Source: Burkholderiales bacterium
Lineage (GTDB): Bacteria; Pseudomonadota; Gammaproteobacteria; Burkholderiales; SG8-41
NCBI GenBank assembly: GCA_030683105.1
Contig: JAUXMZ010000047.1
Location: 1-64,000, forward strand
Reading direction: 5' to 3'
Length of the DNA stretch: 64,000 nt
Shown piece after piece: positions 31,273 through 33,215 of the stretch (position 1 is the stretch's first letter; the number at the start of each line of letters is the position of its first letter). The position numbers were made by a program, and so were the translations under genes. Under the pieces are notes generated by a model. That model did no database searches, was not told the origin of the DNA, and saw nothing but the letters and a program-made list of their open reading frames with translations.

Positions 31273-32172
31273 TTAAAATTTCCGCAGCACGATGAAATCC
31301 GCAAGCTGCCGCAACCGCAATGCACGCTCGCCCAACCCGTCGAGTGCTTTGAGCGCATCGTTGCGCAATTCTGCAGCGAACGCTTTGGACTGCGCCACAC
31401 CCAGCGCGCTTACGTAAGTGGGCTTGCCCTGCCGGGCGTCCTTGCCGGCGGTCTTGCCGAGTGTCGCCGTCGGCGCTTCGGCATCAAGCACGTCATCGAC
31501 CACCTGGAACGCCAGCCCTATGCATTTGGCGAAGTGATCGACCTGGGCGAGCGCCTTGTCATCGAGACCGTTGCCGCAACGCGCGCCAAGCAGCGCAGCG
31601 GCACGAATGAGCGCACCGGTCTTGTGGATATGCATGAACTCAAGCTCCGGCACCGAGAGCGTCTTGCCCACGGCGTCAAGATCGATCGCCTGTCCTCCCG
31701 CCATTCCGCGCGAGCCCGACGCCACCGCCAGCAGCTTGACCATCTCGAGCTGGGTCGAAGCGTCGGCGGCGAGGCGGTACTCGCTGACCAACTGAAACGC
31801 CAGGCTTTGCAGCGCATCGCCCACCAGCAGTGCAGTCGCCTCGTCATATTCGACATGACAGGTCGGCCTGCCCCGGCGCAGCACATCGTCGTCCATGCAT
31901 GGCAGATCATCGTGCACCAGGGAATAGGCATGAATCAGTTCGACCGCCGCACCCGCTATGGCCGCGCGCTCAGGATCCGCCTGGGCAAGCTCCCCCGCCG
32001 CGAACGCCAGCAACGGCCGCACGCGTTTGCCTGCGCCGAGCACCGCGTAGCGCATCGCCTGATGCAGACGCTGCGGCGCGATCTCCGGGGCCGGCAACAA
32101 AGTTTGCAGCAGGGTTTCAATGCGCTCCTGCCGGGCGTGCGCCCAGCCCTGGAAGTCGGTGGCGGAATTCAC
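31273..32172 (-). CDS. ispA: Farnesyl diphosphate synthase (short-chain polyprenyl synthase)
   Basis: The 299-residue trans-prenyltransferase has the first aspartate-rich motif in VHDDLPCMDDD (about 85-95) and the second in FQVVDDVLDAEA (about 225), as expected for geranyl/farnesyl diphosphate synthase. The start is a GTG at 32172. It lies only three bases from the edge of the MITE-like element, whose terminal repeat supplies an AGGGG Shine-Dalgarno-like sequence six bases upstream. In the ancestral arrangement ispA would have started almost at the xseB stop. Confidence 0.95.
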   Translation of the reverse strand: MNSATDFQGWAHARQERIETLLQTLLPAPEIAPQRLHQAMRYAVLGAGKRVRPLLAFAAGELAQADPERAAIAGAAVELIHAYSLVHDDLPCMDDDVLRRGRPTCHVEYDEATALLVGDALQSLAFQLVSEYRLAADASTQLEMVKLLAVASGSRGMAGGQAIDLDAVGKTLSVPELEFMHIHKTGALIRAAALLGARCGNGLDDKALAQVDHFAKCIGLAFQVVDDVLDAEAPTATLGKTAGKDARQGKPTYVSALGVAQSKAFAAELRNDALKALDGLGERALRLRQLADFIVLRKF

Positions 32173-32174
32173 AT

Positions 32175-32568
32175 AGAGCCCCTAACATCATGAAACGCGC
32201 GATGCGCTGTCACGATTTTGGCTCAGGGCGCGAAGCTTCCCGCAGGCCATATCGCGAATATGGGCAATGGGAGCGACAAGGGGGCGCCGTGACTCGTTTG
32301 CCGCAGGCCCGTTTGCGGGAACGGTGCCCGAGCCCCCGGTTACAAAAGTTGCGGCACCCCCCGGCCCCCGTCTCCGCCCCAAAGCTGCGCTCGCCGAGAG
32401 CCGGGGGCAACAGGCCAAAATTCGTGCCAGCCCGAAGGGTTGCGATCAAAATCGGCGCTGACTTTGTCGGCCGGCTTGACCATATTCGCGATATGCTCAG
32501 CGCCGTCCTTCGCGTCAGCACCAATTTTGACTCGCAACGCACACGTGTTTCATGATGTTAGGGGCTCT
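32175..32568. mobile_element. MITE-like element inserted between xseB and ispA
   Basis: Perfect 22-bp terminal inverted repeats (AGAGCCCCTAACATCATGAA then AC at 32175-32196; its reverse complement at 32547-32568) bound a 394-bp segment without a credible gene. Similarity between the ends continues imperfectly for another 30-40 bases. Sub-terminal palindromes CATATCGCGAATATG (left) and CATATTCGCGATATG (right) face each other, so the whole element can fold on itself. Target duplication is unclear; a 2-bp TA is possible. It overlaps the TAA stop codon region of xseB and abuts the ispA start. Confidence 0.85.
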
Positions 32569-32801
32569 TATTCGGCGGCGCCGAAGTTTTTCAGGACGTC
32601 GCCCTCGAGGATCTTGACCTGTTGCTGCGCATCCTGCAGCGCGGCCTGGCAGAACTTGAGCAACTCGGCACCCCGTTTGTAGGCAGCGAGCGACTGCTCG
32701 AGCGGCATCTGCCCGGCTTCCATGCCGGCGACAATAGTCTCCAGCTCGGCCAGCGCCGTCTCAAAGGTGGGGTTGTTCTGGGTTTTTGCAGGCTTGGACA
32801 T
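32568..32801 (-). CDS. xseB: Exodeoxyribonuclease VII small subunit
   Basis: A 77-residue protein with the family pattern FETALAELETIVAGMEAGQM, then LEQSLAAYKRGAELLKFCQ, forming the coiled small subunit that binds XseA. The ATG at 32801 gives MSKPAKTQ; an upstream in-frame ATG would add an unusual extension. It normally overlaps or abuts ispA, but here the two are separated by a 394-bp MITE-like element that overlaps its stop codon. Confidence 0.94.
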   Translation of the reverse strand: MSKPAKTQNNPTFETALAELETIVAGMEAGQMPLEQSLAAYKRGAELLKFCQAALQDAQQQVKILEGDVLKNFGAAE

Positions 32802-33215
32802 GGGTCGCCAATGGCCTTCGTGGGCGAAACCGAAAGAGTAACGCAATCAGTAGGTTGCGGTCAACGCGCACAGCAAGATATTTGCCCTGCGCGCCGCCTG
32901 TCAGGTCTGTTCCAGCCGAGGGAAGAAATTTCACTCCACATGCGTTTCAAACCATATAGATGCATTAATTCAAGCACCCATATGCTACTACTGCTTTGCA
33001 TTCGGTGATGGCGTACAGAAACTTTTTAAAAAGACCGGTGCCTCGCCGCATTTTTTTCATCGGGAAACCAATCGCCCGGGGCGGATTCCGGCTGCCGCAA
33101 TGTGCCCTGCTACAATCTTCAGAAATACATGCAGTCTGCCTGCCGGTCCTGTTTGGTGCGGCAGCGTGACAGGAGGGGAAATGCGGTTAGTGTCAAAATA
33201 TGGTGACGGAAGCCT
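32802..33215. other. Divergent intergenic region, no gene seen
   Basis: This stretch between xseB (minus) and a VTT-protein gene (plus) shows no reading frame with gene-like character. It has moderately AT-rich parts around 32950-33050, where promoters for either side could lie. No repeat or RNA gene was recognised. Confidence 0.5.

Follow-up and report, generated by a model that had tools for sequence, protein, structure and literature searches.

The window, by which we mean the whole 64,000-nucleotide stretch of DNA analysed, carries on its minus strand xseB (32568–32846), encoding the small subunit of exodeoxyribonuclease VII, and ispA (31273–32172), encoding farnesyl diphosphate synthase with a GTG start placed by comparison of the junction in relatives, followed downstream by dxs, all three supported by NCBIfam/Pfam matches. 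Between xseB and the essential gene ispA lies a palindromic, non-coding MITE of 392 bp (32176–32567). The initial annotation described an element of 394 bp with perfect 22-bp terminal repeats, and these arms were recovered by the inverted-repeat search (32175–32196 and 32547–32568; 96% identity when extended to 25 bp), with no chance matches of this kind in 100 shuffles of the window. The extent is slightly reduced, because the TWA target duplications and the alignment of the family copies delimit the element proper as GAG...CTC. With these boundaries, the terminal inverted repeat on the ispA side (GAGCCCCTAACATCATGAAAC) spans 32176–32196 on the plus strand and the identical arm on the xseB side spans 32547–32567 on the minus strand, in agreement with the comparison of arms across the family. 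An inner inverted pair of 51 nt (73% identity) is present within the element. No ORF of the element has a Pfam match, consistent with its earlier description as non-coding, and the Rfam search gave nothing beyond a chance match (MIR4374, 17.5 bits; threshold 105). The long RNA hairpin that had been predicted is also borne out, the minus-strand RNA folding with −214.9 kcal/mol (z = −8.2 relative to shuffles). The interior additionally contains a GC-rich insert of ~130 bp (32280–32412) that is missing from the copies of 265–266 bp. The insert is similarly nested in another copy of the same genome (G000:C38:44259-44382), fragments of it occur at C76:67608 and C29:4471, and it possibly represents another repeat family.

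The element is bordered by an imperfect duplication of its target, which reads ATA on the plus strand (TAT on the minus strand) on the ispA side (32173–32175) and TTA on the plus strand on the xseB side (32568–32570), one mismatch separating the two. The xseB-side copy is at the same time the TAA stop codon of xseB. Among the 44 distinct paired copies of the family, 23 have identical 3-bp flanks, which are TTA/TTA or TAA/TAA in 21 cases, and the consensus duplication of the family is a 3-bp TWA.

For most relatives the xseB–ispA spacing is −17 to +4 nt, from an overlap to a gap of 0–4 nt, while spacers of 13–54 nt are found in some genera; the view that the pair is normally coupled and is split here is thus upheld. 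Joining the flanks outside 32175–32568 indeed yields TAA-T-GTG, as proposed, and when one 3-bp target duplication is removed as well the GTG directly follows the TAA. The orthologous site is empty in the closest relative, where the junction reads TAA-GCT-GTG, and it is mostly empty in the other relatives compared. The ispA GTG is conserved at the equivalent codon in relatives and, in the window, is preceded by an in-frame TAG 12–15 nt upstream, which by sequence comparison identifies it as the ancestral start, rather than a codon elsewhere, and indicates that the insertion left it unchanged. Relatives of the same genus and family start ispA without the element, mostly with weak SDs, such that the ancestral mode of initiation was probably coupling to xseB. 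Long xseB–ispA spacers are present in two further genomes (G004 and G029) that belong to one genus, different from that of the source. The spacer of G004 (L062) forms a foldback of 265 nt (−142.8 kcal/mol). The ispA GTG falls within its right end, and parts of it resemble the interior of the MITE family (77% over 94 nt), but its outer ends differ. The spacer of G029 (L074) retains the right end of the G004 type and carries in addition a short TGCCGTTCCAAC inverted repeat flanked by CTAG. The xseB–ispA junction has therefore received foldback elements more than once.

The 22-bp repeat is multicopy and occurs throughout the genome, rather than at this junction alone. In the draft assembly of the source (4.12 Mb, 78 contigs), 24 matches to the terminal inverted repeat were found, compared with none for the reversed control, and MITE ends were detected in 40 of the 100 relatives searched, one of them from another family, again with none for the reversed pattern. 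Further copies in the source genome comprise five full-size elements of 265–266 bp and one of 538 bp, as well as mini-hairpins of 46–50 bp that consist of hardly more than the two arms. The 46-bp mini-hairpins (G000:C50:63786, C11:103422 and C68:22582) look like REP palindromes, but bear MITE ends, and two of the three are flanked by TTA duplications.

A search for IS5-type transposases identified a 902-bp IS in two related genomes (G012 and G071), the ends of which read GAGCGCC- or GAGCCCC-TAACAAAATGA and are identical to the common MITE ends at 17 of 18 positions. The IS generates the same target duplication, with clean TAA or TTA flanks in G071 and TAA/TTA at the G012 copy. It encodes two overlapping transposase ORFs with PF13340 and PF01609, the second ORF scoring above the cut-off for NCBIfam NF033580 (IS5 family, IS5_3). 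TWA duplications likewise flank IS relatives whose ends differ slightly (GAGCGCATTTCAAAATGA). These IS5-family elements of the IS5_3 group (L236, L237, L250) match the MITE in their GAGCSCCTAACAAAATGA ends and TWA duplications, but differ from it in their length of 902 bp and their two transposase ORFs, the sequence in common being the terminal ~18 bp only. The argument for parentage is consequently drawn from the ends and the target site, and it is from these ends, all that IS and MITE have in common, that we infer cross-mobilisation. The idea that the MITE arose from the 902-bp IS by internal deletion was rejected, since by eye the two share their ends alone. No IS5_3-group transposase was detected in the draft source genome with PF13586, PF13340 or the IS ORFB as query, and matching ends are absent from around its single PF01609 protein (L260). 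A candidate for the parent transposase that the initial annotation proposed to look for is carried in related genomes by an IS with near-identical ends, but none was detected in the source genome itself. On the basis of its non-coding sequence, multiple copies, terminal inverted repeats, target duplications, empty sites and an IS with matching ends, the element is a mobile element of the MITE type.

A hand count placed 15 of the 44 copies at −12 to +5 nt from a stop codon. Among the non-disrupting TWA sites of the window the corresponding figure is 37 of 227, in a comparison that uses rough gene calls and a baseline from this one window. The modest excess is consistent with a TAA-type target and the loss of insertions that break genes. 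Tight gene junctions are occupied elsewhere as well. In a genome of another family (G095), MITE copies are located at trpF|trpB and surE|pcm (L165, L220), with the stop codon of the upstream gene inside the terminal inverted repeat and the downstream ATG following the element at a distance of 3 or 6 nt. In the source genome, a copy on contig C50 stops 3 nt short of the ATG of a gene whose product, judged by eye from the sequence, is AsmA-like; this gene has the same AGGGGCTCTAT-start layout as ispA.

The two arms of a copy tend to match each other. The same four-letter end class is found on both arms in 36 of the 44 copies, with seven different classes represented, and the within-copy arm mismatches total 47, compared with at least 97 in 20,000 re-pairings, a permutation that is not a strict test because the copies are related. 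Repeated matched changes of this kind suggest either that one arm of the palindrome is corrected against the other or that matched ends are selected for. In the full-length IS copies of G071 the two ends differ (GAGCGCC versus GAGCCCC), such that matching may characterise the foldback form, and palindrome-mediated correction of the arms is possible.

The AGGGG that the initial annotation traced to the terminal repeat is indeed situated 6 nt before the ispA GTG (32179–32183, minus strand), where it lies inside the terminal stem. Its calculated anti-SD energy is −5.6 kcal/mol. The modelled empty site gives −1.7 kcal/mol, and ten relatives span −5.6 to +0.1 kcal/mol (−5.6 at L081, −5.0 at L073). 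The common GGCGCTC and GGCACTC subfamily ends reach about −2.4 kcal/mol and contain no comparable SD, which indicates that the SD is not a feature of the MITE family. In the modelled read-through mRNA, AGGGG is enclosed within the 22-bp stem with an unpaired probability of at most 0.001. If 10–18 nt of the 5′ arm are made unavailable for pairing in the model, the A and the first two Gs become unpaired with a probability of 0.62–0.99, the last two Gs still pair locally, and the GTG itself is more paired locally (about 0.1). Only models that block or omit the 5′ arm leave the SD accessible, and the folding models take no account of cotranscriptional folding or helicases. Thus, the SD is real in the sequence, but conditional. 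We note that an ATG-TGA start-stop (ATGTGA; 32169–32174, minus strand), 4 nt after AGGGG, overlaps the ispA GTG and could affect initiation at ispA. On the ispA strand of the element, a simple scan detected nothing resembling a sigma-70 promoter, the sole match pointing away from ispA on the opposite strand, so that the promoter that had been suggested for ispA is not substantiated. Likewise, no terminator-like site was found on the ispA strand inside the element.

We consider it highly probable that a non-autonomous IS5-type MITE was inserted in a TWA site at the stop codon of xseB and has been tolerated there, with passive effects. The mobility signature, the family, the candidate mobiliser and the empty sites are established at the level of sequence. 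The MITE would have transposed into the TWA target located at the xseB stop, an IS5_3-group transposase probably acting on it in trans. It may have survived because the TAA target regenerated the stop codon of xseB, the start of ispA remained intact and no terminator is recognisable within the element, on which account the operon is presumably still read through. Translation of ispA would initiate at the old GTG, with AGGGG probably usable only while something holds the 5′ arm unpaired, such as a ribosome that terminates at the xseB stop, directly on the base of the stem; alternatively, AGGGG could be released when RNase III cuts the long hairpin. Read-through, the conditional SD, and coupling or RNase III processing are steps that we infer. 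Given that AGGGG is only conditionally usable, the effect on ispA would be passive and could amount to lower or more coupled expression, not to a gain.

Other readings assign the hairpin a more active role. Cleavage at the hairpin by RNase III, or the hairpin itself, might split the operon and uncouple xseB from ispA–dxs, which would then depend on a promoter that was not recognised here. The RNA hairpin is very stable and RNase III has been reported to cleave a Correia element within an operon mRNA (PMC10969869), but neither a terminator nor a promoter match is present on the ispA strand of the element, and we regard such a split as unlikely. We would also call it improbable that the hairpin bridges the gap, with the paired arms juxtaposing the xseB stop and the ispA start and a terminating ribosome melting the 5′ arm to free the start, although coupling would in this manner survive the 392-nt insertion. 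The xseB TAA abutting the base of the stem, the partial release of AGGGG when the arm is blocked, the similar geometry at trpF|trpB and surE|pcm, and the different hairpin at xseB|ispA in G004 would all accord with bridging; however, it is purely a model, in which the GTG becomes more paired, and the geometry is equally expected from insertion at a tight junction. In general form, foldbacks in tight junctions would preserve coupling, with stop and start held adjacent and the ribosome unmasking the start, and arm matching would in part be selected thereby, a proposition that we find quite doubtful.

The initial annotation favoured retention of the element as a translation-initiation, and perhaps promoter, module for ispA. 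AGGGG is ideally spaced, its anti-SD energy surpasses that of the empty-site model and of most relatives sampled, and the layout recurs at the AsmA-like gene on contig C50. Against this, AGGGG is buried in the stem, the ispA strand offers no promoter match, the starts next to ends of other subfamilies (trpB and a gpm-like gene) lack an SD (−2.4 kcal/mol), and relatives manage without the element, using the equivalent codon. Retention as such a module is accordingly very unlikely in our judgement, a regulatory role for ispA is unproven, and a tolerated insertion is more likely than a designed ribosome-binding switch. The possibility of an attC-like integron recombination site was rejected as negligible, since the GCCTAAC/GTTAGGC-type motifs at the ends of some subfamilies, which we take to resemble attC, provide a likeness of motif only, whereas the TWA duplications lie outside the palindrome, the repeat extends perfectly outwards, the copies are scattered and single, and an IS5-type element shares the ends.

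The tolerated insertion thus documents an IS5-linked MITE family across a family of the order Burkholderiales, copies of which recur where essential or housekeeping genes closely adjoin (xseB|ispA, trpF|trpB and surE|pcm), and offers a naturally occurring case in which to examine how operons cope with long foldback insertions. The kind of element is already known, while no description of this particular family was found in the literature searched. The Correia elements (NEMIS) of Neisseria have ends unrelated to those of the present MITE and use a TA target. Like the present element, they are palindromic MITEs that reside within transcripts (PMC10969869). The QMITE elements of Coxiella similarly form multi-copy families with size variants (PMC5896051), but the target duplications of QMITE2 are 7–9 bp (PMC10969869), in contrast to the 3-bp TWA observed here. 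The closest report concerns the Chunjie MITE, from a different organism, Geobacter uraniireducens (Chen et al. 2008, cited in the review PMC10969869), which, going by the title of the report, was inserted in an operon without disturbing it.
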